Shown here: piece after piece, positions 126 through 17,506 of the stretch
Layout: every line of letters starts with the position of its first letter
How positions within the stretch are numbered: the first letter of the stretch is position 1
Notes under the pieces: generated by a model
Told to the model about the DNA's origin: nothing
The model's database searches: none
Seen by the model: only the letters and a program-made list of their open reading frames with translations
Assembly (NCBI GenBank): GCA_024276605.1
Contig: JAJRWX010000108.1
Span: forward strand, 1 to 64,000
Origin: Planctomycetota bacterium
Lineage (GTDB): Bacteria > Planctomycetota > Phycisphaerae > UBA1845
Direction of reading: 5' to 3'
DNA: 64,000 nucleotides
Translations under genes and position numbers: made by a program

Positions 126-254
126 TCCCTCGTACCCCCTAAGAACGGAACCCACCGGTACGTTCGTTCACCGTAGCAAGATCAACACGAAAAATCCAAT
201 AAAAAATCTTTTATCTACAATAGTGCCGGTGTTAAGTCGCCAAGCAGTGATAAT

Positions 255-410: not shown

Positions 411-466
411 CATTTCCGCTTTTTTCAATATGATTCTTACCTCAAATCGTTGGTTTGATGTGGCGG

Positions 467-573: not shown

Positions 574-619
574 ACAGCTTCCACGTTACACTTTACTGTT
601 CAACGCTGTAGAACTTGCT

Positions 620-1975
620 CTAGTCGATGTAGCCTAGATCGCGTAGTCGTTGAACGATGTCGTCGTTGACACTCACCTGTGTCGAGTTGTTTTCGTCGTA
701 TTTGGGTGTACAAGACGACCACCAATGATCCAGATGTTGCGTCATGTCTCGCAATTTTTCTTGTGCAAACGGCTGGTCCGCAAGGTTGACGGTTCCTTGG
801 GGGTCGTTGCTTAGATTGAATAGTTCGATCGATGCAGGTGGTTTGTGTGCGAGTTGAGCCGCACATGGGGATCCGTTGATCTTATCGTTGCCATCCTGCA
901 AGGAGGCTAAATGATAACTCCGTACGATTTTCCATTCGTTTACCCAAAGAGATTGTACGTAACGACGACCAACTAACAGCTCGGCGCATACCGGTTCTCG
1001 TGGTTGCGTCTGATGAAACAAATTTCCGTGTGACCATGAGCAGGAGATGCCAACCGTCTTGAGTAAGGTGGGGGTTAACTCAACCAAGCTGACCGGTTCC
1101 GTGAGCCGGTTACCTGGTGAATACTGCGGAGAGGAAATGATAAGCGGAACGTGTGTAAGAACTTGACTCAAGTCTTGTCCGTGGCCTATAGAACCGTGTT
1201 CGTTAAGTTCTTCACCGTGATCGGCGGTAACGATGATGGTTGTTTCGTCGAGCAATCCGGCGGCATCCAGCATGGCACGCACTATTTTAATTTTTCCATC
1301 CAAACGCCGAATTGCCCCATCATACATATCGATCATATCCGTCAGTTCATGGTTGGAGAGTTTTTTATCCCCTTTGCGCATCTCGCGTCGCAACTTGCCG
1401 TAATCCTTCGCACTAAAATCACGGTAACAGTTCGTGTCACGGTTACCTCCAAATTCCGCGATGTGTCGACGACGTGGACGATAAGGCCAATGAGCTTCCA
1501 GAAAGTGTAGGTAGGCGAAAGTGGGGCGATTTAATTCGGTTTGCAGCCATGCGTCGAACTGCGCTAGCAGCCGATCCACTTTTCCACCGTTGGGAACATA
1601 GGTATCGAAGCCACGATTGATATTCGTGTATTCACCGAGTTGGGCATTGTTGAGAAACGCACCGCATCGCCAACCCGCCCGTGAAAGCGCTTCTGCAAGT
1701 GTTGGTGTGGTTGTCGTGAGCGCATCCGTGGTTGTGTTGATGTCATGACGGCGACTTTTCACGCCTCGAAAAACGCCGTGCGCCGAAGGATAGAGGCCGG
1801 TGAGCATGGAAGATACGGATGGTTTGGTCCATGACGAAGGGCTGTAGGCGCGGGTCCAGCGCGTACCATGTTTGGCCAATGCGTCGATTGTTGGTGTGGT
1901 GGGCCTTTGGTATCCATAGGCTGATACATGGTCCGCTCTGACACAGTCTAACACGATGAGTAAAATGCAACGCAA
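620..1975 (-). CDS. Sulfatase-like alkaline-phosphatase-fold hydrolase or transferase with Thr nucleophile position
   Basis: The 451-residue protein belongs to the sulfatase/alkaline phosphatase superfamily. The first metal-binding motif is at residues 8-16 (VLDCVRADH) and the second is VTADHGEE followed by HGSIGHGQ. At the place where sulfatases carry C/S-x-P-S-R it reads SSWTKPSVSSMLTG, so the nucleophile position is Thr and formylglycine cannot form there. Thr nucleophiles are known from LtaS- and EptA-type phosphotransferases in this fold, so a phosphodiesterase or phospho-group transferase is as likely as a sulfatase. It has no signal peptide or transmembrane segment, which suggests a cytoplasmic site. 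The start is a TTG with AAAGGAAA upstream. It is the last gene of the ten-gene operon, 38 bases after the third kinase. Confidence 0.8.
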   Translation of the reverse strand: MRCILLIVLDCVRADHVSAYGYQRPTTPTIDALAKHGTRWTRAYSPSSWTKPSVSSMLTGLYPSAHGVFRGVKSRRHDINTTTDALTTTTPTLAEALSRAGWRCGAFLNNAQLGEYTNINRGFDTYVPNGGKVDRLLAQFDAWLQTELNRPTFAYLHFLEAHWPYRPRRRHIAEFGGNRDTNCYRDFSAKDYGKLRREMRKGDKKLSNHELTDMIDMYDGAIRRLDGKIKIVRAMLDAAGLLDETTIIVTADHGEELNEHGSIGHGQDLSQVLTHVPLIISSPQYSPGNRLTEPVSLVELTPTLLKTVGISCSWSHGNLFHQTQPREPVCAELLVGRRYVQSLWVNEWKIVRSYHLASLQDGNDKINGSPCAAQLAHKPPASIELFNLSNDPQGTVNLADQPFAQEKLRDMTQHLDHWWSSCTPKYDENNSTQVSVNDDIVQRLRDLGYID

Positions 1976-2013
1976 GAGATTTTCCTTTATATCTAATTAG
2001 TCAACTAAAAAAA

Positions 2014-3402
2014 TTAGTCTTGATGTATTACCTGTCGCAACATTTTCGAGGGGCACGTGGCTTGCTCGCCGGCGTCAATTATGGCATGGGCCATGTTCCA
2101 TAGTTTCAGGATCGTGGACGTAGGCTGTCCGCGAACGGCGTGGATGGAGCCTAATCGTGCTAACGCGCATGATAAATAAAAACCAAGACGCGATACCTGT
2201 ATCACGCCGCTATGTTGAATATATGACGATAAAAAGCTTTCAGTCAGCTCATGGGTTGCGTGTTTGTCGTTTTTCCGTTGTGCGCTATCCAGTAGCAGGT
2301 GGGCGAGGAACGTAGCCAAGTCAACTTCTCGCTCCCCCGTACATAATGTGTCGAGGTCCAGCAGCCAGACGGTCTGCTCGTGTTGTAGTAATTGTGTATG
2401 ATAGAAATCTCGATGGACCATCACCGTCGGTCCCGGTATGTGATGGTTTGCCTGAGAAGTTAATTTTTCGATGACGGCAGACAAGAGGTGTTGGTCAAGT
2501 GCTTTGTTGATGATGGATAGCGCGTTGGGCCAACGTGTGAGCGTGCCCATTTCATCTTCCGTTGAGTGGCTAGCGTTAGTTGCCACAGGATCGCAGGCAT
2601 GCAAGCAAGCTAATACCTGGGCAGCCTGGGCAACGCCTGTTTTATTGTATTGCAAAGGATGGGCATTACCTCTCACGCAGGATGTGACGATAAGGCGTTT
2701 TGTTTGGTCGATAGCCAGGGTATCAGGTATTTTGATGGTATCCTTGCTCAAGCGCGTAAGCTGTTGTTGTAGTTGTGATAAAGGCTCGGTGTTATATCCG
2801 GGTGGTAGTCGGTGAAACGCTTTGACGTAAACACCGTCATGATGATCCGGCGCCACGTGCATGACGCAACGGCGGTGCACCCGGTATGCTCGTAGCGATA
2901 ACTGCAACGATTGTGGCGAAAAGGTAATTGGCTGCGATCCCACTGCGTGATGGTTGATCACAGACAACAACTCAGCCAATTCATGGTGATCGAATAATTC
3001 ACGGGACCATCGTATGCGTTTATCACGATCGGGTGAGCAGACCCAGAGGTCCAGCGATTCATGGTGTAGCCTCAGACCTAGTAGCGCATGGCCGGAGAGT
3101 CTGGCGTTGTGATGAGGTCGCCCTAATCGGGGTTCACTTAGCCATCCACCTTGCAGGGTTACTTCGCGCTGGGTATTTTTGATCTTGACGATGACTAATA
3201 GTTCAAAAGAGATGCCTCTTCGGTGAGAAGGCCAAAGCCGGCGAAGTTGTAGGTGAGACAACGATGTGTCAGTGGGCCATCGTACGGCTTGTGAAAGCCA
3301 ATCGTACATGGCATCCAGCGGTTGGGCTAATGGACTAAGCTTGTCTGAAATCATGTGTTGAAGCTTTTGATTCATCTGGACTACGGTTTGCACTTTGTGC
3401 AT
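2014..3402 (-). CDS. Two-domain APH-fold small-molecule kinase (third copy in operon)
   Basis: The C-terminal half is an aminoglycoside-phosphotransferase (APH/choline kinase) fold. The catalytic loop HRDFYHTQ lies at about residues 330-337, the metal-binding DLD at about 349-351, and a probable ATP-binding lysine in VYVKAF near 194. An N-terminal domain of about 150 residues precedes it, with motifs RLWPSH and CSPDRDKRI, then a YRVHRRCVMH segment. Equivalent motifs occur in the two other kinases of this operon, so all three are paralogs. The substrate is unknown; members of this fold phosphorylate hydroxyls of sugars, choline-like alcohols or aminoglycosides. The ATG at 3402 was chosen because it has AGAAGG upstream and overlaps the preceding gene by only 22 bases; the frame is open further upstream to 3477. 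Confidence 0.8.
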   Translation of the reverse strand: MHKVQTVVQMNQKLQHMISDKLSPLAQPLDAMYDWLSQAVRWPTDTSLSHLQLRRLWPSHRRGISFELLVIVKIKNTQREVTLQGGWLSEPRLGRPHHNARLSGHALLGLRLHHESLDLWVCSPDRDKRIRWSRELFDHHELAELLSVINHHAVGSQPITFSPQSLQLSLRAYRVHRRCVMHVAPDHHDGVYVKAFHRLPPGYNTEPLSQLQQQLTRLSKDTIKIPDTLAIDQTKRLIVTSCVRGNAHPLQYNKTGVAQAAQVLACLHACDPVATNASHSTEDEMGTLTRWPNALSIINKALDQHLLSAVIEKLTSQANHHIPGPTVMVHRDFYHTQLLQHEQTVWLLDLDTLCTGEREVDLATFLAHLLLDSAQRKNDKHATHELTESFLSSYIQHSGVIQVSRLGFYLSCALARLGSIHAVRGQPTSTILKLWNMAHAIIDAGEQATCPSKMLRQVIHQD

Positions 3403-4061
3403 GGGGCTAAGCCTTCTTTGAATGCTTGGGTAGTCCCTCGGAGCACGATTTTGCGTTCGGGTTTTATTTTTGCGCATTCCTCACATTGAGGTCGATGGAA
3501 ATTGCCGTACTTACGGTCAGCGATATACTGGCTTTCGTGTGAAGGTTTTCGTATTTTCCACAAGCCACGTCGGTGTAATCGCGCCTCAGTCTGAGCTTCG
3601 AGCAGGCGTTTTTTGAATCTATAGTTTTTATCCGTGAGTCTGACGTAGGCGAGGCCTTCTCGGACGAGTATTTCATTGACGAAAAGATCATCCACAAAAA
3701 CGTAGACCAACATGCGGCCCTTATCGTCATATTTTTTCTTACCAAATCGTAGGCGCAGTCGTTTTCCCTTGACCAATTCATTGTTACGATTAAGCGATGC
3801 CTCGAAAAGTGGGTGACCTCTTAATGGGGCGCGCAAGCCGATGTAGATGATGTAATCGTCGTCTTTCTCGCCGTCAGTATCGATTTGAACTTTGTTTCCA
3901 CTGATGGCGTATTCAGCGTCTACATACAATGAGCGATGAGGATTGCGCTCGTTGGAAATCTGGCGTCTGGGCCAAAAGGCAAGCGTCAGTGCCGTGATCG
4001 CCAAGACGATGAGAATCGTAAGGTAGCGCCATCGATGGTCAGCAAAGGGGCTTAAAGACAT
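3381..4061 (-). CDS. Membrane-anchored SNase-like protein with C-terminal cysteine motif
   Basis: The 226-residue protein has an N-terminal membrane helix (about residues 13-30), a staphylococcal-nuclease-like OB-fold domain (about 44-166) and a C-terminal segment with H189, C193, C196, C221 and C224 in the pattern FHRPQCEEC...PCTKC, a likely zinc site like the Ada-type metal-binding modules often found after such domains. The fold is supported by KGRMLVYVFVDD, VNEILVREGLAYV and RRGLW. The segment matching the catalytic loop of S. aureus nuclease (Arg35, Asp40, Glu43) reads IIYIGLRAPLRG, so Arg35 and Glu43 are not conserved, while the Arg87 equivalent (R116) is. It may therefore bind rather than cut nucleic acid. 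It lies six bases after the prepilin gene and overlaps the next kinase by 22 bases. Confidence 0.72.
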   Translation of the reverse strand: MSLSPFADHRWRYLTILIVLAITALTLAFWPRRQISNERNPHRSLYVDAEYAISGNKVQIDTDGEKDDDYIIYIGLRAPLRGHPLFEASLNRNNELVKGKRLRLRFGKKKYDDKGRMLVYVFVDDLFVNEILVREGLAYVRLTDKNYRFKKRLLEAQTEARLHRRGLWKIRKPSHESQYIADRKYGNFHRPQCEECAKIKPERKIVLRGTTQAFKEGLAPCTKCKP

Positions 4062-4067
4062 AGGAAA

Positions 4068-4757
4068 CTATCTTCCTGCTCGGTTGAACTCATCCCAAAT
4101 GTCTTCGATGAGATCATTGTCTTCCGGCTTAAATGGGTGAGTTAGTTCATTATCCAAGAGGTAACCTCGATCCTTTACGTATTGTACGTGCCCGTCAAGA
4201 TATGCGACGTTGACGCCTTTTTTGTGGCCGCTTTTAACGACCTTAGGTATATGAAAAATGTCCGACAAAATCGCGGGGTTTCTGGTAAGTTGCGATAGTT
4301 TTTTGCCGGTCAGATGGTAACGCCTGGCGTACGCTGCCCGCGTATCAAGTAAGGGAACTGCAGGCCAGGGGTTTTCCGGCGTGGATAAACTGTGGTAAGG
4401 GTCTGTCTGCCTTGGGCAATACAGTGGAGCAATGGTATCTAACGATACGCCGTCGCCTAAAATCGCACCGAAGTTACTATGCATATCTCGGCCATCGTAG
4501 ATCAGATAATTATACTGCCATGCGCCGTCGTCCGGTTCATTATTTAAGGGGGGAAAACGTTCGTTGTCGTGTAAATATACGGACAATGAAAGATGTAGCG
4601 CTCTGAGTTGTGTCATACACAGTGTGTCGCGCGCTTGTAACCGTGCGCGATGCATAGAAGGTAGGAGGATACCCATCAATGCAGATATGATGGAAATGAC
4701 GATGAGTAACTCCAACAACGTAAAACCGTGTCTTTGTTTATGAACAGCCGTGTTCAT
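4068..4757 (-). CDS. Type II secretion/type IV prepilin-like protein with H-x9-DG tail
   Basis: The 229-residue protein begins with a short basic leader and a class III prepilin signal, HGFTLLELLIVI, where prepilin peptidase would cut after Gly and the Glu at +5 is present, followed by one hydrophobic helix. The C-terminal region contains VNVAYLDGHVQYV, the DG-containing tail typical of planctomycete pseudopilin-like proteins. The product is expected to be an inner-membrane or assembled pseudopilin. No prepilin peptidase, secretin or assembly ATPase lies next to it; a PilT-type ATPase is 31 kb away. It starts with ATG at 4757, two bases after the kinase stop codon and six bases before the SNase-like gene, so it is clearly part of the glycan operon. 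Confidence 0.85.
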   Translation of the reverse strand: MNTAVHKQRHGFTLLELLIVISIISALMGILLPSMHRARLQARDTLCMTQLRALHLSLSVYLHDNERFPPLNNEPDDGAWQYNYLIYDGRDMHSNFGAILGDGVSLDTIAPLYCPRQTDPYHSLSTPENPWPAVPLLDTRAAYARRYHLTGKKLSQLTRNPAILSDIFHIPKVVKSGHKKGVNVAYLDGHVQYVKDRGYLLDNELTHPFKPEDNDLIEDIWDEFNRAGR

Positions 4758-4759
4758 GG

Positions 4760-6181
4760 TTATGCTATCTCCCGGTTAAACTCCGCCGTCTGCTGCAAGT
4801 TGCGGGTCCAAGTTATTTTATCTATCGTCAAGGGGCCGCGTGGGTTGGTTAACAATTGTTTCGCTATATGCCATAACGCTTCCGCCACCAAACCCTCATT
4901 TTTACGAAGAATGTGAACCATCCCAATACGTATGAGTGATGAACTAAAATAATAGGTAAGCACATTCGAATCGATATGGCCTCCATGGGTTATATACGAG
5001 CGAATAAAAGATTGATATAGGTTTGACCAACTCTCATCGTGTGCATCATTGGCGATTGTTTCCAATAAAAGATGCGCTAAAAAATTTCCAATATCAACGC
5101 ATCGATGACCTCTAGCCATGGTGTCTAAGTCTAGGATAGCGATATGATCCCCATCAATCAGAAGCTGCGCAGGATAATAATCGCGATGAACTGTGGCTTG
5201 GTTGTCATCTACGATTTGTGTCGATACATCGTGCAGCATGGTGGACAATAATTCCAGTTGTTGATGATGTTGGGGTGCAATTTTATCGGTTAATGACATC
5301 CAACGTTTGACGATCTGCCATTCATCCTCGATGGTGAAAGTATGTAGACCATCCAGCTCCATGTTGTGAAAGACGGCTAAGGCTTCTGCGGCAAGATGAA
5401 GATGTGTGGTGATATCCGGGCTATGGATTGACAACCTCTGTCCACCGAGCCAGTGAAATTGAGCCATGCGATATTGCTCGTCGTAACGAATAGGTTCAGG
5501 TATGCGCACTCGGCTATGAGTCATCATGCGGAGTTGGTCTGATACTTGTCCGTGTCGGCGAATGAGCTGATGCCCACGATCGTCGCGATATATTTTGCAA
5601 AACAAATCTTTCGTTGATCCGTATACTTGGCTGAGTGAATAACGAAAGGCTGCCCGTCGGCCTGCTCGGTAACCCAACAAGCAGGCGGTTAGGTGTTGCG
5701 AGCGATGGCCGTTTCCATTTCCATTATTAGATCGGTCGTTCTTCGTTTTTACGTCAGGTTTTAGTACGGTTACATCGTCTAAGCACTTGCCGAGTTGATC
5801 TAAGTGAGGATCACAATCTGGAGAATGAACGGCTATGCGCCAATCGGTAATATAGACCGATACGCCCAATAGCACCTTTCCGGATAGAAAAGGTTCACGG
5901 TCTGATGGTGTGGACAATTGAGGTGATGCCCCTTCCTCGATTGTAGTGACATATAAAGAGTATCGTTGATTGTGGGATAAGTTGAAAGACCATTCGATCG
6001 ACAGTGTTCCATCGCGTCCCGGCCAATAACGCTCGATGTGCAGGTTTGTAGGTTGGTCAAGTGTTTTCCAGTCCGTGGCTACGTATTTACGAAGCACGCC
6101 TAAAGCCACGCGCTCATCGAGCAGTTGCTGAAATCGTAGACTATCGGTGATGTTAGTGACTCGGGTTTCCATGTTCTTCAT
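4760..6181 (-). CDS. Two-domain APH-fold small-molecule kinase (second copy in operon)
   Basis: The protein of 473 residues has the same layout as its neighbours. An N-terminal domain (about 1-165) carries RYWPGRDGTLS and HSPDCDPHL, a linker is rich in Asn/Gly (about residues 152-159), then GYRAGRRAAFRY leads into the kinase domain. A likely ATP lysine is in LFCKIYR (about 196), the catalytic loop HRDYYPAQ is at about 332-339 and the metal-binding DLD at about 351-353. All key residues are present, so it should be an active kinase of an alcohol or sugar substrate. Its ATG shares one base with the TGA of the preceding kinase, which indicates translational coupling. The prepilin gene follows after two bases. 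Confidence 0.82.
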   Translation of the reverse strand: MKNMETRVTNITDSLRFQQLLDERVALGVLRKYVATDWKTLDQPTNLHIERYWPGRDGTLSIEWSFNLSHNQRYSLYVTTIEEGASPQLSTPSDREPFLSGKVLLGVSVYITDWRIAVHSPDCDPHLDQLGKCLDDVTVLKPDVKTKNDRSNNGNGNGHRSQHLTACLLGYRAGRRAAFRYSLSQVYGSTKDLFCKIYRDDRGHQLIRRHGQVSDQLRMMTHSRVRIPEPIRYDEQYRMAQFHWLGGQRLSIHSPDITTHLHLAAEALAVFHNMELDGLHTFTIEDEWQIVKRWMSLTDKIAPQHHQQLELLSTMLHDVSTQIVDDNQATVHRDYYPAQLLIDGDHIAILDLDTMARGHRCVDIGNFLAHLLLETIANDAHDESWSNLYQSFIRSYITHGGHIDSNVLTYYFSSSLIRIGMVHILRKNEGLVAEALWHIAKQLLTNPRGPLTIDKITWTRNLQQTAEFNREIA

Positions 6182-7539
6182 CAACGGTCTTTCACATCCT
6201 CAGTGGCCAGTTGAATACAACGGTCTGCTAAATTTTTCCATCCGGGACGAAGGTGTCGCATCATGCCGCGGGCTAAGTCCAGTTTAGATAAAGCCGCGTA
6301 GCATTTTAATCGAGCGCGATCAATCGACTCACCGGTTACCTCTTGCCAGTTTGCTAAAAACATATCTTGCCAGCGCTGCGCCTCGCTAAGCTTGACACCG
6401 CTTTCCGGGCGGTATCCCAGCATGAGTAATTGGCTTGCAAAATTGGCCACATCCAGCAGCGGGTCTGCATTGGCCATCCTTTCCAGATCAAATAGAGCAT
6501 AACGATCACGTTTAATCGATAGTTGATTCCAATGAAAATCATTGTGAACAGTGCCTATTGCTTCCGCCGCATCTCCAGTGAGAAGAAACATATGCTCCCA
6601 TAGTCTTCTGATTGAAGTGAGTGCGCTTTGTTGAGTTGGGTATGCTGTTGCAAGATCAATGCAGCATGTGCCTATGCGTTGGGCAATGTCGGTTCTAGTG
6701 ATTCGCTCAAGTCCTACTATGTCATGTGTGTGCAAGGTGTGTAGTCTGGTAGCTATGCCCAGTAAAATGTTTTCGCAACCTTGATCTTTAATCGCGTCAA
6801 TCAAGTGATGACCGCGTATCCATTCGACGCCGAGTAAACTATTATCATGGGAAGTACCAACGACATCGGGAACTAAAAATCTTGGCCCGGTAGATACGGT
6901 TGGCTCAGCTAGCGCTTGATGCCGGCGAGCCAGTTTGTCGATGGATTCCGGAGAGCCTGCACGTATCGCGATACGTTTCTTGTTACTTCCTCGATGGTCC
7001 GACCAGCCGTCGAGTTCTGCGCGGAGTCGCACGATCCATTTTTGTTCGGGTACATAACGAACCAACAAGCGTTGCAGCGTATCGACTTTTAATGTGGCCT
7101 GGTTTCCGGATGCATTGAGCCATTGTTGCCAAACTTCGATGCATGATTCTCGTCCTGCAAAGTGGCGCACGCCGCGCAGTCGGCGATCGTTGGGAAACAG
7201 ATAAGCTTCGACATCTTGACCGTCGATACGGATAACTTCTCCGCGTCGCGATATGGACTCTCTGACTGGGGCATGTAAGTAAACCAATTGCCCGGTCGGC
7301 CAATAACGGCTGGCAGGGGTGTCTGTGTTTGAGAGTAATACATAGACGACCCTGACGTATCGGTTGGGGTGATACAGTGTTTCGATGCGCCTGGCGACGC
7401 ACCAGTTCTGCTGATTAGAGGTATTTTGGCCACGTGTCAGTTGCATGCGACAAGCATCGAGGACAACCTGTTCATCAAGCATGCCTGCTAGCGCGGCCAC
7501 ACCTTGGTCCGATGGGTATTCATGAGGTGCGATTAACAC
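6181..7539 (-). CDS. Two-domain APH-fold small-molecule kinase (first copy in operon)
   Basis: This 452-residue protein has an N-terminal domain (about 1-150) with TLYHPNRYVRVVY and YLFPNDRRLRG, a VRYVPEQKWIVRLR segment at about 160-173, and an APH-type kinase domain. The catalytic loop is HNDFHWNQ (about 332-339) and the metal ligands are in DLERM (about 351), so the second acidic residue is Glu rather than Asp. The GTG start at 7539 is preceded by GAGGAG with eight bases spacing and overlaps the ABC transporter stop by seven bases. It is the most divergent of the three paralogs, which suggests a different acceptor. Substrate unknown. Confidence 0.82.
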   Translation of the reverse strand: MLIAPHEYPSDQGVAALAGMLDEQVVLDACRMQLTRGQNTSNQQNWCVARRIETLYHPNRYVRVVYVLLSNTDTPASRYWPTGQLVYLHAPVRESISRRGEVIRIDGQDVEAYLFPNDRRLRGVRHFAGRESCIEVWQQWLNASGNQATLKVDTLQRLLVRYVPEQKWIVRLRAELDGWSDHRGSNKKRIAIRAGSPESIDKLARRHQALAEPTVSTGPRFLVPDVVGTSHDNSLLGVEWIRGHHLIDAIKDQGCENILLGIATRLHTLHTHDIVGLERITRTDIAQRIGTCCIDLATAYPTQQSALTSIRRLWEHMFLLTGDAAEAIGTVHNDFHWNQLSIKRDRYALFDLERMANADPLLDVANFASQLLMLGYRPESGVKLSEAQRWQDMFLANWQEVTGESIDRARLKCYAALSKLDLARGMMRHLRPGWKNLADRCIQLATEDVKDR

Positions 7540-9392
7540 TTGAGTTGCTCCTCACTTGTATGGCCTGTGGAGGGTTTATCATGGCTACCAACCAATCGGG
7601 CATACTCACCGTCGAGGTTTAGTAGTTGATCGTGCGTGCCATTTTCGCAAATTTGTCCCTCACGAAAAACGATAATACGATCGAATCGATGCATTTCCTG
7701 GAGTCGGTGACATATGACAATAGTGGTGCGCTTTGATGGAGACGACATCCAAGTGCTTTCTATTTCTTTTCGTGATACGGGGTCAAGACCTGTAGCCGGC
7801 TCGTCCAACAACAAAATAGCTGGGTCCAACAATAGCGCTCGGGCTAAGGCGATTTTTTGACGCTGACCACCAGATAAAGTACATCCCGCTTGACCTAATA
7901 TGGTATTGTACTGCTCGGGTAGTGCGCGGATGAAACCATTTGCGCCGACCGCCTTGGCTGTTTCTCGCACGGTTTTGAGCTTTGTGTCGGGATCGCCAAA
8001 CGCGATGTTTTCTCGTATCGATAAACCAAATAATACAGTGTCCTGGTTTACCCAGCCGATGCTTCGGCGAAGTGACGCCAAAGTGGCCTGACGAATATCC
8101 ATGCCATCCAGCTTGATGCAGCCCTGATGAGGATCGAAAAATCGAAGCAGTAACTTAGCCAGTGTACTTTTTCCTGCGCCGTTGTGACCGACGACGGCGA
8201 TACGCTCTCCCGCTTGGATGTGCAGCGAAACATCACGAAGCGCCTCAGTGCCATCGGCATAAGCGTAGGTTACGTGTTCGATGGAAATGTCCCCGCGCAC
8301 ATTTTCAATCGGCGTACTATGCTCGCCGTCAGATACTTCAGCCTCCAGTGCAAACAGCTCGGCCACGCGCTCGCCGCAGGACGTTGATTTAGCGAGCTGT
8401 CCGGCTACTTTGGCAAACCGCCGCATGGGTTTTTGTAGCGAGCGCAGGTAGGATAAAAAGACAAGCAAATCGCCGGCAGTCATGGTTTCGCTTAACACCG
8501 CACGTACGCCGACGTATAGGATGGCGCAGGTAGAAGTAGCGGAGGCGATAGTGATCACGCGGTATAACTTGGATTGTAATCGCGTCGTTTTGACTCCGGC
8601 GCGAACTGAACTACGATTCTGACGTGAAAAGCGTTTCTGTTCAATGCCTTGACGATTAAATGCTTGAATCGTCGGCAGTGCCCCTAGTGCATCGTGGGCG
8701 ATACTGGCGACCATGCTCTCATTCTCACGTTGATTCTTGGTGGCTTTGCGGATTTGCCGTGAGATGCGATATCCCATCCACAGCGTGATCGGAATGGTCG
8801 CTAATCCCAATAATCCGAGTACGGGATTTAGCCAAAGCATCGCGGCGATCATCGCTACGACTGTTAGCCCCGCTTGGGTCGACGAGATGACGGCGTTAAT
8901 GAGCATCTGCCGCAGCATTTGAATGTCGCCGGTGATCCGCATGAGTAAGTCCCCCGTGCGGCGACGCTCTAGCAATTGGGGGGGGAGAGATTGTAAATGG
9001 GCGAAAAGATCACGACGGAGGTTCCCAACGACGCGTTGACCGGTCTGTGCCAAATTTACGTCACGAAGGTGAGAGAAGATGCCATCTAACACCGCAATGA
9101 CAACAATGCCCCCACAGACCCAACCCAACACGGAGATTGGCGTGGGTGCGATGCTCGCAAGAAACTGCCCTAGCTGACTGGATGACATTTTGTCAGTGAG
9201 TACAAAATCGAAAATAATTTTGATAGGCCACGGTGCGAGCAGTTGCATTGTGACCGCGCCGAAAGCTGCGGCCATGACGCCTACGAGGGTCATGCGATAG
9301 GGGCGAATATACTGCGCGAAACGCTTCCACACGGCACCAGCGGCGCCTAGGTCGAGCTTGCCACGCGCGGTCTTGATGATCCAATGGGTCAT
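7533..9392 (-). CDS. ABC exporter, fused permease and ATPase (MsbA-like half transporter)
   Basis: The 619-residue protein has an N-terminal transmembrane domain (about residues 30-330) with six predicted helices, followed by an ATP-binding domain: Walker A GHNGAGKST (402-410), Q-loop Gln at 450, signature LSGGQ (506-510) and Walker B ILLLDE (526-531). All catalytic residues are present. Such half transporters dimerise in the inner membrane and export lipids, lipid-linked sugars, peptides or glycans. Its place between three glycosyltransferases and three kinases suggests that it moves a glycan or glycolipid made by the cluster. The ATG has GGAGG eight bases upstream and follows the preceding stop codon directly, with no spacer. 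Confidence 0.93.
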   Translation of the reverse strand: MTHWIIKTARGKLDLGAAGAVWKRFAQYIRPYRMTLVGVMAAAFGAVTMQLLAPWPIKIIFDFVLTDKMSSSQLGQFLASIAPTPISVLGWVCGGIVVIAVLDGIFSHLRDVNLAQTGQRVVGNLRRDLFAHLQSLPPQLLERRRTGDLLMRITGDIQMLRQMLINAVISSTQAGLTVVAMIAAMLWLNPVLGLLGLATIPITLWMGYRISRQIRKATKNQRENESMVASIAHDALGALPTIQAFNRQGIEQKRFSRQNRSSVRAGVKTTRLQSKLYRVITIASATSTCAILYVGVRAVLSETMTAGDLLVFLSYLRSLQKPMRRFAKVAGQLAKSTSCGERVAELFALEAEVSDGEHSTPIENVRGDISIEHVTYAYADGTEALRDVSLHIQAGERIAVVGHNGAGKSTLAKLLLRFFDPHQGCIKLDGMDIRQATLASLRRSIGWVNQDTVLFGLSIRENIAFGDPDTKLKTVRETAKAVGANGFIRALPEQYNTILGQAGCTLSGGQRQKIALARALLLDPAILLLDEPATGLDPVSRKEIESTWMSSPSKRTTIVICHRLQEMHRFDRIIVFREGQICENGTHDQLLNLDGEYARLVGSHDKPSTGHTSEEQLKC

Positions 9393-10724
9393 CTATACAA
9401 CCTCCGTAGAGAGGTTCTCATCCAGCGAGGTGCAGGCATCAGGTCTGTCTTGGGTTACTATAGCCGAGGCATGATCGCGGGTTCCGTTGCACAAGAGAGA
9501 ACGAAGCTTGCAAACATTTGTCGTCACATTAAACCGTTCCTGCACGCGTTGTTGTCCACCGGTAGAGAGAGACAGGGCAAGTTGTTGATCCACCAGCGTT
9601 TTTTCAATGGCCTGTGCAAGACCTTGCGCGTCACCAGGATCGACCAACAGCCCGCTTTGGCCATCCTCAATAATCTCTGGAATGCCGCTGAGTTTGGTAC
9701 TGACCGTCGGGCATCCACAGGCTAAGGATTCTAGTAGCACGGTCGGCAAAGCGTCCACGTTGCCATCTTTCGCGCGGACACACGGCAGTGCGAAGCACGA
9801 GGCCTGTTGCATTTTCTTGCGCACCTCGTTTTGTTCCAATGCACCGACCAGTTTCACCACAGGCTTTAAGTTCAGCTCCTTGATGGCTTGTTGAAGTTTG
9901 CGCTGTTCACGACCTTCCCCGGCGATTTCGCATTGCAGTTGTAGTCCGCGTTTGTGTAGGATGTCGACGGCGTGAATAAGATCAATGAACCCTTTCTTTT
10001 CGATAAGGCGTCCCACGCTGAAAATAGTCATAGGCTTTCGAGCAGAGCCGTTCGGTGTAAAACGCGAGGTATCGATGCCGTTGTACAGGACTTTGACTTT
10101 TGAAGCATCCAGGCCGGGTAGATGATCGATCATGTATTGACGGTTCGATTCGCATACCGTCACGACGAATTGCGAGGCATTGATTTTTTTGCATAGCAAT
10201 TGTTTGTTGACGTTATCGCGAAAAATGTCGAAGGCATGAAGCGTTAAGCTATACGATAAATTTCCTAACATATTAGCTAACAGCGCTACGGTAGCTTCAT
10301 CGGTGCCGAAGTGAACGTGTACATGGTCAATATTATTTTTGCGAACCCATCGTAGAAGTTCATTGGCCTGTACGAGTTCAAATAAATTTTCTCCTGCGTA
10401 TCTCCGGACGAGACGTATGGCACGCATGTAGTCGCCGGGTTGTCGACGAAATAGCTTGACTTGGGCGCGTAGATGTTTCCAGACATTTCCTATGATGCGA
10501 TCGTTGAAGTAATTGACTCGTGCGCGCACCCGCGTCGCGGATTCATGAAATACGCCTTCGTTGGGCAAGCGTAACGAAGCAATGTGTAAATCCGTGCCTT
10601 GCTTTTCTAGCTCAAGAATTTCATTGACAACGAATGTCTGAGAAAAACGGGGGTACATGCGAAGCATATAACCAATACGCTTTTCGCTGGTGGGTGCCGG
10701 TGTTGTCGTCGTTAGTGGTTTCAT
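9393..10724 (-). CDS. GT4-family glycosyltransferase
   Basis: The 443-residue protein is a GT-B fold retaining glycosyltransferase. Signs are YPRFSQTFV near the N-terminus (typical of exopolysaccharide transferases of the colanic-acid type), VLYNGID (about 212-218), SVGRLIEKKG (about 236-245) starting the donor-binding domain, and the acidic donor motif in LLESLACGCPT with a second Glu in GIPEII (about 350). It has no membrane helices and should act on a lipid-linked or soluble acceptor at the cytoplasmic face. The ATG at 10724 lies 14 bases after the previous gene, and the stop codon abuts the start of the ABC exporter. Donor and acceptor cannot be read from the sequence. Confidence 0.9.
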   Translation of the reverse strand: MKPLTTTTPAPTSEKRIGYMLRMYPRFSQTFVVNEILELEKQGTDLHIASLRLPNEGVFHESATRVRARVNYFNDRIIGNVWKHLRAQVKLFRRQPGDYMRAIRLVRRYAGENLFELVQANELLRWVRKNNIDHVHVHFGTDEATVALLANMLGNLSYSLTLHAFDIFRDNVNKQLLCKKINASQFVVTVCESNRQYMIDHLPGLDASKVKVLYNGIDTSRFTPNGSARKPMTIFSVGRLIEKKGFIDLIHAVDILHKRGLQLQCEIAGEGREQRKLQQAIKELNLKPVVKLVGALEQNEVRKKMQQASCFALPCVRAKDGNVDALPTVLLESLACGCPTVSTKLSGIPEIIEDGQSGLLVDPGDAQGLAQAIEKTLVDQQLALSLSTGGQQRVQERFNVTTNVCKLRSLLCNGTRDHASAIVTQDRPDACTSLDENLSTEVV

Positions 10725-10738
10725 CTTTACTCACCGGT

Positions 10739-12025
10739 TCACGCGATACGTTCAAGTCGTTGATGGGGATCGTCTGATTGTGATTCTATCATTCTACGAT
10801 GCATGGCTTTGTCCAATGTGTGCATTGTTGCTTGAGCGGCATGTCGCCAGGTGTATTGACTGCACACATGATCGAAAGCCGTTTGACTAAGTTTCTTTCG
10901 CATCGTTGGATTGTCATAGGCACGTTTAAGTTTTTCGCAGAGATCGTCCACATCATCAGGTTCGAATAGCAGTCCGGACTCGTTATCCTTCAAAATGTCG
11001 GCCATCTGACCAAGTCGAGATGCCACTACGCAGACCCCGGCAGCCATGTATTCGAACAGCTTGATGGGTGAATAATAAAACGACGTCGTTTGCTTCGATG
11101 GTGCGACAGCTACGTCCATGGCATGCAATACACGGGGCACTTCGGCGTGGGCAATCGCGCCTAGGAACGTGACGGAGGATGCCAAGCCTAATTGTGTCAC
11201 GAGTTCGCGCAGATGGTTTTCCTGGGGACCGGACCCGGCTAAGAGTAAGTGTGCCTCTGGTATGTCGCGCTTGAGTTTGGCAAACGAGTGAACGAGTGTT
11301 TCTACGCCGTGCCAGGGTTTGAACGTGCCGACAAAGCCGATCGTGAATACATCGGGTATCTGTAATTCGCGGCGCATGTCGCTCGCGGGTAGGTCACACA
11401 CAAAACGGTCAATGTTCACACCGTTTGGAATGACATCGATTTTTTCCGGGTCAATGCCTTTTTCGGCTAATGCCTGAGCCAGGCATTGAGAAACAGCCAT
11501 CATTCGATCGCAATGGTTGAAAACATGATTCTCGATATCGCCGGCTAATGCCTTCAAGTGGAGTGAGCGGAATTGTGCGGCTTCTTCTGTGAGAATGGCA
11601 TTGACCTCGAGTATGTGTGGGATGTCCAATCGTTGAGATATGTCTATGCCGACATGCCCCATCAGCGACAACCGTTCAATGACGGCATCGGGTGCGAAAT
11701 CATTGATTGGTTCGGTCAGCTCCTCCGCAGCGCGTATGTTGTACCATAATGAACGAAATTCTCGGGCCATCCCGTCACTTAGACCGCGATCGCGTAGCCA
11801 AGTTTTCATTTGTTGAGGAATTTGTTTGATCGCTTTGGAAGGCGGTGCCAATACGGAAACTGTAGCGTGGTCGTCACCGGTTCCCGGATTGGGAGAGAGG
11901 ATCGAGACCTCATGTCCCAACTCAGCCAGCGCCGTCGTGATCGAGCGCAGGTGGATCGATGCCCCCTTCACGCCACGAACGGGTATACCGAAATCACTAC
12001 ATACGTACAGCAGTCGCACTTTCAT
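10739..12025 (-). CDS. GT4-family glycosyltransferase
   Basis: This 428-residue GT-B enzyme starts MKVRLLYVCSDFGIPVRG and then has a G-x-S-x-H element (KGASIHLRS), the usual acceptor-side start of GT4 enzymes. The C-terminal donor domain begins with IGFVGTFKPWHGV and carries YYSPIKLFEYMAAGVCVV, where the E of FEYM is the conserved donor-binding glutamate. The ATG at 12025 lies inside the end of the preceding gene (29-base overlap) with AAGGAT upstream. Its neighbours are two other transferases, so the three enzymes probably act one after another on the same glycan. Confidence 0.9.
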   Translation of the reverse strand: MKVRLLYVCSDFGIPVRGVKGASIHLRSITTALAELGHEVSILSPNPGTGDDHATVSVLAPPSKAIKQIPQQMKTWLRDRGLSDGMAREFRSLWYNIRAAEELTEPINDFAPDAVIERLSLMGHVGIDISQRLDIPHILEVNAILTEEAAQFRSLHLKALAGDIENHVFNHCDRMMAVSQCLAQALAEKGIDPEKIDVIPNGVNIDRFVCDLPASDMRRELQIPDVFTIGFVGTFKPWHGVETLVHSFAKLKRDIPEAHLLLAGSGPQENHLRELVTQLGLASSVTFLGAIAHAEVPRVLHAMDVAVAPSKQTTSFYYSPIKLFEYMAAGVCVVASRLGQMADILKDNESGLLFEPDDVDDLCEKLKRAYDNPTMRKKLSQTAFDHVCSQYTWRHAAQATMHTLDKAMHRRMIESQSDDPHQRLERIA

Positions 12026-13211
12026 TATCCTTATACTGTAGTTCTTTGAAGCGAAGGGCGACGCGGTCCAAACCGTTCAAATCCAGGACTTGGTTGTTCA
12101 CTTTGGATTGGTGGTTTAGTAAAAATTGAACGCGCTTAGATAACAATTGCGGCGAGAGTTGTGACGGCTCGATCATTTCGAGAATGCCAAGGTCCTGCCA
12201 TAGACGCGCACGCATCAGTTGTTCCTGGCGAGGTTGCATGCGTGGAACAATAAGGGCACGTTTTTTGTTTGCCGCGATTTCGCACAGTGTGTTGTATCCT
12301 CCCATAGATACTACCAGGGCCGCATTGCGGATGCGCTGAGATAGATTAGGATCGTACGGTACCCATTCCACAAGCGGAATGGATGATGCTTTATCTTGCA
12401 GAGCGAGACTGGTTTCCGTCGGTAGATCAGGACCAGCAACGAGTACGGAGCGTATGCCTTGCTGTGCTAATTGACCAGCCGCTTCATCGAGAAACGTCTG
12501 CAAAAGTGATTCGCCATCCGTTCCGCCGCCGACCGTCACTAATACATACGGAGGTGTATTTTCGACGGTCGTTGAAGACGCTGCAACTTTTCGTGTGACG
12601 TACCCCACATACTGAAGTTTTTCGCGCACTTGCGTTGAAAGTTGATAATGATCAGCCACATCGAAAATCTGCTGCATGCCATACACCCATATTTCGTCGA
12701 ACAACGTAGCTAGTTTGCCCGGCACGCCCAATTGCTGCCACTGCGCAATAGTCACGAGTGGCGCATCTTCGATGTCACGCATACCGAAAACGATGCGTGT
12801 GTTAGGGCGCTGCTCACGCAACCATTCCAGGGCAGACAGCAACTCGCCACAGACGCCGACCGGTGCTTTATCAACGATGACAATGGTCGGATCAAAAAAA
12901 CGAACGCTGTCACGAAGCATGTTGGAACGCAATTGCATGATGTTATCTGAAGGGAGCGCAAAAAATTTACTCTGATATTCGTTAGGGTGGGCTTTAATTA
13001 ACGCAGGTAGCTTGATGTAATCAGCGTGTTGGATGCCATCGAACATGGACACATAGGGTGTGCCTGTAGCAATCAAAAAGCTGGTATCGGGAACATCGCG
13101 ACCGATGCGATGGCAGATGGCTGTGGTGCGTGCCAGGTGTCCGATACCCACACCGTCATGGCAATACGCAAACACACGTTCTTGGCCTTTATGATCTTGT
13201 TTTACACTCAT
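11997..13211 (-). CDS. GT28/MurG-like glycosyltransferase, first gene of the operon
   Basis: The 404-residue protein has a GT-B fold of the MurG/GT28 type. The N-terminal GVGIGHLARTTAI (about 20-32) corresponds to the GxGH loop, the second domain starts with VTVGGGTDGE (about 225-234), and SMGGYNTLCE (about 302-311) is the donor-phosphate and base-binding region. Such enzymes transfer sugars from nucleotide-sugar donors to lipid-linked acceptors. The ATG at 13211 is preceded by TTAGGA. No co-directed gene lies upstream, so the operon promoter should lie in 13212-13627, where two identical palindromes sit. The end overlaps the next gene by 29 bases. Confidence 0.85.
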   Translation of the reverse strand: MSVKQDHKGQERVFAYCHDGVGIGHLARTTAICHRIGRDVPDTSFLIATGTPYVSMFDGIQHADYIKLPALIKAHPNEYQSKFFALPSDNIMQLRSNMLRDSVRFFDPTIVIVDKAPVGVCGELLSALEWLREQRPNTRIVFGMRDIEDAPLVTIAQWQQLGVPGKLATLFDEIWVYGMQQIFDVADHYQLSTQVREKLQYVGYVTRKVAASSTTVENTPPYVLVTVGGGTDGESLLQTFLDEAAGQLAQQGIRSVLVAGPDLPTETSLALQDKASSIPLVEWVPYDPNLSQRIRNAALVVSMGGYNTLCEIAANKKRALIVPRMQPRQEQLMRARLWQDLGILEMIEPSQLSPQLLSKRVQFLLNHQSKVNNQVLDLNGLDRVALRFKELQYKDNESATAVRM

Positions 13212-13627
13212 GCGTAGTTATGGTCCTAATTCGAAAAATAAACGTACCGGTTAAGGGCAGTACACGATCCATTCCGCGCTGGAGTGACTCACGTAAGTGT
13301 TCTTATCGCTTCTAGGGGGCGAATTTGAAGGCACAGATCGGGTAGGCGAGAAAGTAGTGCGAGTAGGCTCGCAGTCGTGATGGCAGATTGCGAGTAGGCT
13401 CGCAGTGATTGATGTATGACGAGATCAGGTGAAACCAACATAGCTTGGGAAAACGTCGAATGCAGGCATTGTGGGGCGAGGTAGGTTAGCGGACTGAGTT
13501 TGGCATTGGAATTGCTTTGATTATCTCTTATTCGCGGCTAACAATAAACAAGACTAATCCTCAGATGTGTTAGGTGGGTTGGTTTTGTTAGGGGCAAAGA
13601 AGTATCTCAGGACGGGAGTTAGAAGAA
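13212..13627. other. Divergent intergenic region between glycan operon and dockerin gene
   Basis: These 416 bases separate two divergent transcription units and should hold promoters for both. The clearest structure is the pair of identical palindromes described separately. No coding potential, tRNA or strong consensus promoter was recognised. Confidence 0.6.
13358..13406. promoter_or_regulatory. Two identical palindromes 31 bp apart (operator-like)
   Basis: The 18-base sequence TGCGAGTAGGCTCGCAGT occurs at 13358-13375 and again at 13389-13406. Each copy contains the inverted repeat GCGAG-TAGG-CTCGC. The copies are spaced 31 bases start to start, close to three helical turns, so two dimers would bind on the same face of the DNA. 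They lie between the starts of the ten-gene operon (13211, minus) and the 1033-residue secreted protein (13628, plus). A paired operator is one reading; small intergenic hairpin repeats are the alternative. Confidence 0.45.
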
Positions 13628-16600
13628 GTGTACATATCCAGAGTCAATGTGCGCGCTTTGGCTGGCTTAATTGCCATCGTTGCCATTTCGTGGTCGCCAA
13701 TCAGTAGTTTTGCGCAAGTGCTTAATCATCCGGTCATCACCGAAGTGTATACCGACCCTTTCGGTCTTAACGACGGCCCCGTAGGAAGTGACCCTGCAAG
13801 CCAGCATCAAGAGTACATTGAAATCTACATTCCGCCGTGCGCGGACCTCGTTGGTCTCAATTGTAATGCGTTAAATCTTACGTTCTATGAAGTCGAAGGC
13901 GATTCGAGTAGCTCCGGTGTAGAGCTAATAAACTACCGCTTCGACTTACCAACGCTGCAAGCTGGTACGACCGGAAAAGTCGTCGTGTTGGGTTGGTTAA
14001 AGTACATTGGCGATCCTCCATCGGCCTTGGCTGGAACGTCAAATACGCGCATAGCCATGATTAATAACCAGGTAACGAGTACCGGCGGTGCTTACGACTT
14101 TATCGCCATCAACGGTAACCATTTTGGTGGCGGGGTAACCAATCCGAATTTCTCAGCGATATTGGCGGAAAGCTTTATCAATGTCCCTAATGAAACCAGA
14201 AGTGGTATTGTACAAGACGGTTCCGGCGTTTATTTGCTCGTTAATCGGGATGCCGCTGGTTACGTCCAGCTATGCGACGACAAAAATCTTACGGGTTGTT
14301 CGTCTGCGGGTTTTTGTCGTGGCAGCTTAATTGTGGGTACGCTGACTCCCTGTACGGTAGGGGCGGTGAATGCTTGTGCTGATGGGTCTAAGTGTCTTCC
14401 TCAAGGCGCTCACCCTGTCCTTCCGGACAATAACTTCGGATTGAGCACAAGTGCTTTGTTGGATGGTTATGCTGGTAATAACGATAGTAAATTTAGAATC
14501 GATCAACAGCCTGTGACGTGTAATGATGTTCCGGCTAATTGCAACGACCTCGAAACCGTACTCACGGCTGGTGGTGCATTTAGTTTGTTGATCCCGCAAA
14601 TGCCGGATGAAGACACCACGCGTCTGACGCCTACTGTCGGTAACGGTTTCGCGCGAATATACCCAGATGTAGCTAAAACCACGGAAGATAGTAACGCATT
14701 TAATGATGATCCTGTGGTGGATGCGATGGAGAGCTATCGACTGATCCGTAATGCTGGACCGTTTTACCCGACGCCGGGTGTTGTCCCACTATCGACTTCC
14801 GCCCCAGAGCTTAGTGTTGCCGATGACACGGAGCAGAATTTTGAAGTCTTAACGAAAACGACGGGACGACCGGGCATTTTATCAGCGAATACCGGAGGCG
14901 CCTTCAACATCGACATGTCTGTTTCAGGCATAACCCTGCCTGCGGGGGCAGCCACTTTTGCGCCAGGAATTACTGATACAAATGTTGCAGGGCAAACTTT
15001 TGGATTTCCGTCGGTAGCTATAACCCCGAATGCCGGAGCTACCCATTTGTCTAGCGCCACAGCGAATGTGACAGTAACTGCGGTCAACAGTTCCGGGGGC
15101 CTGCCCGCTGTACAAAACGCATCACAGCAAGTTTCCGTAACCGCTACGATTCTCAATCCGATTGACGGTAAGGATGTAACGGGCGCAGCCTTTCAGACCA
15201 CCGTTTTTCTTGCGATTCAGCCGCTCAGAGATGATCCAGGTGTGCTTAACGAATTCCTAGCTTCAAGCGTTGGCACGTTCATCGCAGGACAACCTAACGC
15301 AGCTTTACTGGGTACCGTGGGTAATGCATCATTCTTGCTTGATCCTCTTAGCAATCTAAGCGACTCAACCGTATGGAGTGGTAGGACGAAGGACTTACCC
15401 ACACTCAGTGAAGAGTGTACCAACTGGATCAACATACCAGGCCCTGGCGTTAAACTGGATTTCGCTCAAACGGTACTCACTTCTGCGGAAGCTACGCAGA
15501 ATTGTGTGAATCCGGCGAATTGTCAGGATGCAGAGATTACAACTTATGCAGAATCTTTCACGCGTAATACTACGTTCGCAGGTACGGTGTGTGATGACGG
15601 TAGTGGTACTTTCTGTGGACAAACGCCTCAGAACGTTGGTGACGCCTGCAATCCACCGAATTTAACTGGCAGATGTATAGCCGTCTGTGCACCTGGCGTA
15701 GATACCTTTATTCAGGCGCAGTCGTTTAATAATCCGGACATATCAACATTCGGCGGAACATTCTCTCCTACAGAATTGGTTTTCTTTGCAGATAGTAAAG
15801 GGGTAACCGGGAATGTGCGTAGCGGTCTGTCAAATGCGACTACATCCAGAACGTTTGAGTTATTGATTGTAGATTATAATTCTTTCAGTGTAGGCAACAA
15901 CAGATATGAGAGCGGTCTGACGGATGATTTTGGTATCATGATCAAAGTGCTTGATACTGACAACACCATTGTAGAACCGGGTGAATTTGTATTCTTGAGT
16001 TTCTCAGGCGGTTTCCAAGGGGCCGATATTGACATGCTGGTGGGAGCTGATGGCGATGTGATTGCCAATTTGATCTTCCTTGACCTGGATAACCTGCATG
16101 ATCAGTTGGGCATTCTTTCCATCAACAATATTTATATCGTGGATGGTAGCGGGCCTGGTGAAGTTGACATTTTAGAAGTGTTTGCTCTCAATCCCGTGGG
16201 TGGTACGCAAACGACTATCTTATCATCAGTTCCAGCCACTGGGCGTTCGCTTCCACGCTCTGCGGGCAATGTCATGAGACTGACTTTCTCGCAGGATATT
16301 ACACTACCCGCGACGGGTGAGTTGGTGATTCAAGAATTGCTACCTGTTAGTCAGTTTGGTGTGGACTTGGCTTCCGGTTTTGCAATGAGTATCGAAAATG
16401 ATATGTCTGGAAATCCACGTGTTTTGCGTATCGAGGACACCGGTGCTGCCGATTTATTCCATCGGACATGGTACTCGATTCGTAATACGGGATCATGGCC
16501 GGGCGTCAGTCCTTTCGAAATACAGCTCGTGGTTCAGGTGGGTGATGCTGACAATGATGGTACTGTCGGCAATGTGGATATTAGCTCCATCAATGCTAAT

Positions 16601-16729
16601 TTCACATTCAATGCATTAGACGACGACCGCAACGACATTGATGGTGACAGCTTCGTTAACGCTGCCGACATTGATCTTGCTGCCTCTAATATACCGTCGT
16701 TCATCGTACAAAAGCCAACAGGTCATTAA
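13628..16729 (+). CDS. Large secreted protein with C-terminal dockerin-like domain
   Basis: The 1033-residue protein begins with a signal peptide (hydrophobic ALAGLIAIVAISW, cleavage after SSFAQ) and continues with VITEVYTDPFG, a start resembling lamin-tail-like domains of exported planctomycete proteins. The middle has several Cys-rich patches (near residues 215-265 and 595-695), probably disulfide-bonded surface loops. The C-terminus has two calcium loops, DADNDGTVGNVD and DIDGDSFVNAADID, which together form a dockerin-like module, so the protein may attach to a partner or the cell surface. The start is a GTG with GGGAG upstream; start choice is moderately sure. Function of the body is unknown. 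Confidence 0.75.
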   Translation: MYISRVNVRALAGLIAIVAISWSPISSFAQVLNHPVITEVYTDPFGLNDGPVGSDPASQHQEYIEIYIPPCADLVGLNCNALNLTFYEVEGDSSSSGVELINYRFDLPTLQAGTTGKVVVLGWLKYIGDPPSALAGTSNTRIAMINNQVTSTGGAYDFIAINGNHFGGGVTNPNFSAILAESFINVPNETRSGIVQDGSGVYLLVNRDAAGYVQLCDDKNLTGCSSAGFCRGSLIVGTLTPCTVGAVNACADGSKCLPQGAHPVLPDNNFGLSTSALLDGYAGNNDSKFRIDQQPVTCNDVPANCNDLETVLTAGGAFSLLIPQMPDEDTTRLTPTVGNGFARIYPDVAKTTEDSNAFNDDPVVDAMESYRLIRNAGPFYPTPGVVPLSTSAPELSVADDTEQNFEVLTKTTGRPGILSANTGGAFNIDMSVSGITLPAGAATFAPGITDTNVAGQTFGFPSVAITPNAGATHLSSATANVTVTAVNSSGGLPAVQNASQQVSVTATILNPIDGKDVTGAAFQTTVFLAIQPLRDDPGVLNEFLASSVGTFIAGQPNAALLGTVGNASFLLDPLSNLSDSTVWSGRTKDLPTLSEECTNWINIPGPGVKLDFAQTVLTSAEATQNCVNPANCQDAEITTYAESFTRNTTFAGTVCDDGSGTFCGQTPQNVGDACNPPNLTGRCIAVCAPGVDTFIQAQSFNNPDISTFGGTFSPTELVFFADSKGVTGNVRSGLSNATTSRTFELLIVDYNSFSVGNNRYESGLTDDFGIMIKVLDTDNTIVEPGEFVFLSFSGGFQGADIDMLVGADGDVIANLIFLDLDNLHDQLGILSINNIYIVDGSGPGEVDILEVFALNPVGGTQTTILSSVPATGRSLPRSAGNVMRLTFSQDITLPATGELVIQELLPVSQFGVDLASGFAMSIENDMSGNPRVLRIEDTGAADLFHRTWYSIRNTGSWPGVSPFEIQLVVQVGDADNDGTVGNVDISSINANFTFNALDDDRNDIDGDSFVNAADIDLAASNIPSFIVQKPTGH

Positions 16730-16782
16730 TGGAGTTAGTGAAATTGAGGTAGACCTGATAGTTATTGTTTATAGAGTTTGAA

Positions 16783-17463: not shown

Positions 17464-17506
17464 TTGGTTTGAATGAGTACCTGTGAACGTCAAAACCAGC
17501 TAAGTG

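Follow-up and report, generated by a model that had tools for sequence, protein, structure and literature searches.

Among described systems, the exopolysaccharide loci of the PEP-CTERM/XrtA type that carry PrsK/PrsR (PMC1569441) are closest in arrangement to the ten-gene operon reported here; in a system of this type, pepA is RpoN dependent (PMC9850573). The operon belongs to an uncultured Planctomycetota bacterium and occupies the minus strand from position 13211 to 620 of the window, by which we mean the whole 64,000-base stretch of DNA that was analyzed, the first 64000 bases of contig C98 in an assembly of 4.5 Mb and 110 contigs. It encodes three glycosyltransferases (GT28, GT4a, and GT4b), an MsbA-type ABC half-exporter, three APH-fold kinases (A, B, and C, encoded by kinA, kinB, and kinC), a pilin-like protein, a staphylococcal nuclease (SNase)-like protein, and a sulfatase-fold enzyme. 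The pilin-like and SNase-like proteins are integral parts of this system, linked to it as tightly as the kinases. We lean toward the reading that the locus serves assembly, phosphorylation, and export of a glycan and that these are coupled to regulated production of a surface protein.

The parallel with the XrtA loci is one of logic. The GT4 enzymes of the operon are nearest to glycosyltransferases of XrtA systems, a secreted-protein gene with a sigma-54-like site is linked to the operon, and an NtrC-type regulator and a histidine kinase lie beside related clusters. Unlike in XrtA loci, however, Pfam searches found no exosortase in the cluster; the two exosortases of the genome are located on contigs C52 and C44 rather than C98. 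Scores also remained below the NCBIfam cutoffs, both for the glycosyltransferase model TIGR04063 (178.6 versus 442 bits) and for the response regulator model TIGR02915 (344.8 versus 502.6 bits). Without an adjoining exosortase and with these scores, membership in the XrtA/PEP-CTERM family was rejected. We noticed no PEP-CTERM motif at the termini of the secreted proteins linked to the operon. We know of no description of kinases, a pilin, or an SNase-like protein in PEP-CTERM/XrtA loci.

Other systems resemble single parts of the operon. One MsbA-like half-exporter downstream of cytoplasmic glycosyltransferases recalls flipping of the MsbA/PglK type, but the protein scored below both equivalog cutoffs (406.6 versus 602 bits for MsbA, TIGR02203, so that it is MsbA-like by architecture only), and neither an oligosaccharyltransferase nor lipid A genes accompany it. 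An APH-fold kinase next to a GT4 enzyme is also found in CotS/CotSA of the Bacillus spore coat; here, the match to the CotS model TIGR02906 was weak (28.7 bits versus a cutoff of 172.7), spore formation is missing, and the gene set is far larger. With maltokinase, APH, and choline kinase, the three kinases share the catalytic fold and the HxD....(N/Q) motif, whereas identity is 14 to 16%, the N-terminal domain is a different one, and the trehalose-synthase context was not seen. A literature search, which for the most part did not extend to subscription journals, found no described system with this gene set, in agreement with the first-pass annotation of the locus.

Conservation and co-inheritance of the operon

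Six-frame profile mapping identified the same gene order in about 20 genomes of a single Planctomycetota order. In the relative from the same genus (G002), the complete set of ten genes is present in unchanged order, with identities of 57 to 88%. In nearly all related loci on sufficiently long contigs, GT28-GT4a-GT4b-ABC-kinA-kinB is followed by the pilin and SNase genes. This holds even for L059 and L060, from another family of the order, where the kinases are only about 23 to 24% identical and the pilin and SNase genes still follow kinB. Less constant than the other operon genes are kinC and the sulfatase-like gene. In L075, L076, and L077, the sulfatase-like gene is found upstream on the other strand, next to the pilin gene, and together with the secreted-protein genes the two form one divergent block. 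Where the pilin gene lies outside the operon, it adjoins the sulfatase-like and secreted-protein genes or is found elsewhere in the same genome.

Within the order, co-occurrence was evaluated across 114 genomes. For kinase A and the pilin, 22 genomes had both and 89 had neither, with one alone in 1 and 2 genomes (P = 3e-20). The corresponding counts (both, either single, neither) were 20, 3, 3, and 88 for kinase A and the SNase-like protein (P = 3e-16) and 20, 3, 5, and 86 for kinase A and the large secreted protein encoded divergently from the operon (P = 8e-15). These P values assume independent genomes and are too small because of shared ancestry. The linkage nevertheless exceeds chance, since about 20 other genomes share the gene order, and the co-occurrence statistics rule out a chance association of the pilin and SNase genes. 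Orthologues of the operon-linked pilin and SNase-like proteins occur once per genome and almost only together with kinase A. The first-pass annotation had regarded these two proteins as unexpected partners; their linkage, equal to that of the kinases, does not bear this out. It had also staked its reading on a conserved neighborhood in related genomes, which was found both in the recurring order and in the co-occurrence, and its proposal of a glycan synthesis and export cluster with three paralogous kinases is supported, as the cluster is conserved and co-inherited.

Among 392 genomes sampled from the phylum, with few candidates scored in each, no kinase A or pilin orthologue at the level seen within the order was found beyond the window's own genome. 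This strongly hints that both orthologues are absent from the rest of the phylum. One exception is L079, a contig labelled Planctomycetaceae, which has the gene set.

Three paralogous kinases

Judged from their alignments, the kinases are paralogous along their full length, and their APH motifs are intact. Homology between kinases B and C spans 420 columns (hhalign E = 2.9e-69), and that between kinases A and B spans 415 columns (E = 2e-30). All three retain H-x-D-x4-Q and a second Asp, and the catalytic set is invariant or nearly so: H332-D334-Q339-D351 in A, H333-D335-Q340-D352 in B, and H355-D357-Q362-D374 in C. The N-lobe Lys is conserved in B (Lys197) and C (Lys219), whereas the corresponding region of kinase A contains Arg193, which is invariant; by this criterion, kinase A appears divergent from the other two at the ATP-binding Lys. 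The AlphaFold model of kinase A (pLDDT 87) matched APH, choline kinase, homoserine kinase, and maltokinase structures with Z scores of about 20 in a comparison that covers residues 119 to 452. Maltokinase was the first match in Foldseek, and the YtaA structure was among the fold matches.

In other phyla, kinases were found fused or in tandem. A double-length kinase in L134 combines an A-like first half (96 versus 75 bits) with a B-like second half (105 versus 36 bits). In the double-length kinase of L118, the first half scored 87 versus 83 bits for A and B and the second half was B-like (115 versus 67 bits). Two tandem kinases, both closer to B, are present in L128. For this reason the paired arrangement is likely to be ancient, and kinase C would be a later duplicate of B. 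The first-pass annotation had the product modified three times, which goes beyond these observations: the divergent kinase A and the fused kinase pair of some other phyla fit a two-kinase complex with kinase C as a later duplicate as well as they fit three separate reactions.

Pilin-like, SNase-like, and sulfatase-fold proteins

The pilin-like protein carries the prepilin N-terminal cleavage and methylation motif (PF07963, 32.5 bits; TIGR02532, 28.4 bits versus a cutoff of 16.3). Its score for the major pseudopilin GspG was below the cutoff (TIGR01710, 37.9 versus 88.85 bits), and its resemblance to solved pilins is confined to the N-terminal helix. A structure model reached a pLDDT of 49, and the soluble part is thus not reliably predicted. 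This soluble domain is 43 to 88% identical across the order, which makes it more conserved than the kinases, and its invariant residues include W80-Q81-Y82-N83, C114-P115, H169, and H178.

The SNase-like protein aligns with staphylococcal nuclease by an OB-fold sequence match. Of the catalytic set of the nuclease, which we take to be Asp21, Arg35, Asp40, Glu43, and Arg87, only the last has an equivalent (Arg116), and the other four positions are replaced. Since one of five catalytic positions is kept, the protein is probably not a nuclease, and an active nuclease was ruled out as a candidate identity; a binding or scaffold protein is most likely. It also has a C-terminal tail that staphylococcal nuclease lacks, in which the invariant H189-C193-C221-C224 resembles a putative zinc site.

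For the sulfatase-fold enzyme, at least 90% of 10 sequences share W49-T50-K51-P52-S53-V54, with Thr50 at the nucleophile position. The formylglycine sulfatase motif Cys/Ser-x-Pro-x-Arg was not found, as Thr occupies the nucleophile position and the sulfatase Arg is missing; a true sulfatase was ruled out because that position holds neither Cys nor Ser. An enzyme of EptA/LtaS type is not indicated either (NCBIfam scores of 15 to 37 bits, below the equivalog cutoffs; no membrane domain). The protein begins at its metal-binding motif, and neither a signal peptide nor a membrane segment was detected. Our best guess from these features is a cytoplasmic phosphotransferase or phosphatase.

Divergent secreted proteins and candidate regulation

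Relatives of the large secreted protein are 39 to 75% identical over their full length and adjoin the operon in many loci. No Pfam domain was found in the protein family except for dockerin-like ends in some members, and a lamin-tail-like identity suggested by visual inspection was discarded, as Pfam finds no such domain. The C-terminal 170 residues or so (model positions about 794 to 968) are shared by several proteins per genome that differ in the rest of their sequence, with six matches in G024, five extra ones in G012, and others in G004, G014, G026, and further genomes. This region resembles a common domain for surface sorting or anchoring that has no Pfam name.

Sites of the sigma-54 type, called solely by their match to the consensus, were present in seven loci including both members of the genus. 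They are located between the divergent transcription units and point at the secreted-protein gene or at the block of sulfatase-like, pilin, and secreted-protein genes. Out of a maximum of 21, the consensus score was 19 in the window and in L041, 20 in L042 and L056, and a perfect 21 in L044, L046, and L052. When 742 kb of strand was scanned, four perfect sites were found, three of which are those of L044, L046, and L052. A histidine kinase and an NtrC-type regulator adjoin the cluster in L041, L045, L052, L059, and L060 and in the more distant L073. To the left of the operon, the same-genus relative carries the regulator; the 620 bases of the window on that side lack it, and the window's genome encodes it (83% identity) on another contig. 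The extent assigned by the first-pass annotation, the ten-gene operon, holds, but the system also reaches beyond it to the secreted-protein gene, the sigma-54-like site, and, in relatives, the regulator pair.

A wider core in other lineages

A GT28 search over 84,980 species, followed by profile mapping of the loci, revealed a GT28-GT4-GT4-ABC-kinase core outside the order, sometimes with one glycosyltransferase undetected or fused. The loci are labelled Acidobacteria, Gammaproteobacteria (Methylothermaceae), Nitrospirae, Eisenbacteria, the archaeon Methanoperedens, and another Planctomycetota. In these lineages, the core is without the pilin and the SNase-like protein. Four loci (L094, L112, L118, and L134) contain a gene for an AlgE-type porin inside the core cluster, some of them together with a DUF5666 gene. 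As AlgE-type porins are associated with alginate-like polymers, their presence argues for a polysaccharide exported from the cell as the core product.

In the order itself, AlgE-type porins (PF13372) are encoded by 104 of the 114 genomes, often in two to three copies. Considered as an absent partner of the operon, the porin is uninformative, since these genomes have one regardless of the operon. Positions 11118 to 15420 of L116 (Nitrospirota) hold two heparinase II/III-type polysaccharide lyases amid GT28, GT4, and three APH-type proteins. The lyases hint that the product may include uronic acid.

Proposed function and alternatives

In the reading that we favor, GT28, GT4a, and GT4b would assemble a short glycan on a lipid or another acceptor at the cytoplasmic face. 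Phosphorylation of hydroxyls on the glycan or its carrier would fall to kinases A, B, and C, probably as complexes, and the cytoplasmic Thr-type sulfatase-fold enzyme would transfer or strip a phospho group. The MsbA-type ABC protein would then flip the product over the inner membrane. The pilin-like protein would be matured by the prepilin peptidase of the cell and, with the non-nuclease SNase-like OB-fold protein, may form a handling station beyond the inner membrane for the anionic product or the secreted protein. The large secreted protein would be expressed from the divergent sigma-54 promoter, and glycan and protein would meet at the surface. The gene set with its order and co-inheritance, the paralogy and motifs of the kinases, the residues lost or replaced in the SNase-like and sulfatase-fold proteins, the linkage of the large secreted protein, and the sigma-54-like sites are observations. 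By contrast, we infer the nature of the product (a glycan or glycolipid), its role as the kinase substrate (rather than a lipid or a protein), the direction of its export, the topology, and the roles of the pilin-like and SNase-like proteins.

Several observations weigh against this scheme. The operon lacks an enzyme for sugar activation, an initiating phosphoglycosyltransferase, a polymerase, and a protein for export across the outer membrane, and the AlgE-type porin gene of other phyla has no counterpart next to the planctomycete clusters. In one family, 3 genomes carry the operon without the large secreted protein, and 5 genomes have this protein but no kinase A. For APH-fold kinases, small molecules, lipids, and proteins are all possible substrates. 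A more specific version, in which a dedicated pseudopilin and a dead, zinc-tailed SNase-fold protein take a multiply phosphorylated glycan from the ABC flippase and link it with giant secreted proteins under sigma-54 control, seems doubtful; in this new kind of envelope machine, a pilin-type piston or scaffold would act on a glycan instead of protein or DNA.

Modification of a protein is the alternative that survives best, although we consider it unlikely. Here, the glycan, a phosphate, or both would be placed on the pilin or the large secreted protein, which would be the product. Both proteins are linked as tightly as the enzymes, their genes share the divergent block of L075, L076, and L077, and the kinase fold is common to LxmK, a peptide-phosphorylating enzyme. 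However, no oligosaccharyltransferase was found in the operon, and the wider core keeps the glycosyltransferases, the ABC protein, and the kinases without the pilin and the secreted protein, which argues that these two were not the ancestral substrate. Less probable still is an exported small glycolipid or glycosylated natural product (a signal, surfactant, or antibiotic) with phosphorylated sugars in place of a structural glycan. An MsbA-type exporter and three glycosyltransferases without a polymerase would suit such a compound, yet conservation spans several families of one order, surface proteins and a pilin are tied to the operon, and the core elsewhere adjoins AlgE-type porins, which suggests a polymer. 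That these are ordinary exopolysaccharide genes to which the pilin, SNase, and sulfatase genes merely remained linked is very improbable: H-X9-DG pilins are indeed abundant (31 to 180 candidates per genome) and SNase relatives also occur elsewhere in these genomes, but the specific orthologues occur once per genome, almost exclusively with kinase A, and the soluble pilin domain is conserved more than the kinases.

Gene calls and other features of the window

The ten packed minus-strand genes and the families named in the first-pass annotation agree with the open reading frames (ORFs), Pfam, and NCBIfam, and one start was corrected (Table 1). Neighboring genes overlap by 29 (GT28/GT4a), 7 (ABC/kinA), and 4 bases (kinA/kinB) or are separated by 14 (GT4a-GT4b), 0 (GT4b-ABC), 2 (kinB-pilin), 6 (pilin-SNase), and 38 bases (kinC-sulfatase-like gene). 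The listed start of the kinC ORF, 3477, yields a 97-base overlap with the SNase gene; since kinC of the same-genus relative aligns only from residue 34 to 35, the real start is probably near 3375. GT28 is 35 to 71% identical across 12 relatives and scores far below the MurG equivalog cutoff of NCBIfam. Neither RNA families nor tandem arrays were found in a scan of the operon.

Table 1. Coordinates and supporting evidence for features of the operon and its divergent neighbors
Feature	Position	Strand	Evidence
GT28, GT-B glycosyltransferase with MurG-like C-terminal domain, operon gene 1	11997..13211	-	PF04101, 54.5 bits
GT4a, GT4 glycosyltransferase	10739..12025	-	Pfam; nearest NCBIfam TIGR04063, 178.6 bits vs 442 required
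GT4b, GT4 glycosyltransferase, EpsE-like	9393..10724	-	Pfam; NF041876 EpsE, 252.6 bits vs 400 required
MsbA-type ABC half-exporter, membrane domain and ATPase	7533..9392	-	PF00664, PF00005
Kinase A, APH fold, N-terminal beta-rich domain, HxD....Q and DLE motifs	6181..7539	-	PF01636, AlphaFold model
Kinase B, APH fold; Lys197, H333-D335-Q340, D352/D354 invariant	4760..6184	-	PF01636
Prepilin-like protein, conserved 180-residue soluble domain, H-X9-DG C-terminal motif	4068..4757	-	PF07963, TIGR04294
SNase-like (OB-fold) membrane-anchored protein, C-terminal HxxxC...CxxC tail	3381..4061	-	PF00565
Kinase C, paralogue of kinase B	2014..3477 (start probably ~3375)	-	PF01636
Sulfatase/alkaline-phosphatase-fold enzyme, Thr50 at nucleophile position, no signal peptide	620..1975	-	PF00884, 156.6 bits
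Large secreted protein of ~1000 residues, family without Pfam model, divergent from operon, co-inherited	13628..16729	+	Synteny, co-occurrence
Small secreted protein, dockerin domain; located after the large protein in several relatives	16765..17463	+	PF00404, synteny
Second small secreted protein, related to the product of 16765..17463	17504..18703	+	Synteny
Sigma-54 (-24/-12) promoter-like site TTGGCATTGGAATTGCT, toward large secreted-protein gene	13500..13516	+	Consensus match

Farther along the window, a 1358-residue protein is encoded on the minus strand at positions 18869 to 22945. By visual inspection it contains repeated amidohydrolase-like segments, and a counterpart with 80% identity occupies the matching position in the same-genus relative. 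At the contig start (window positions 1 to 600, plus strand), we noticed a dockerin-like C-terminal fragment, ADGAIDLSDYAALQ.

Implications

The cell envelopes of Planctomycetota are unusual, and these bacteria have pilin-like genes by the hundreds without an assigned use. The strong co-inheritance of a pilin family, a dead-nuclease family, and a family of giant secreted proteins with a phospho-glycan gene set makes a testable pathway of genes annotated as hypothetical. The wider core suggests a widespread and apparently undescribed type of glycan that would be phosphorylated before export.

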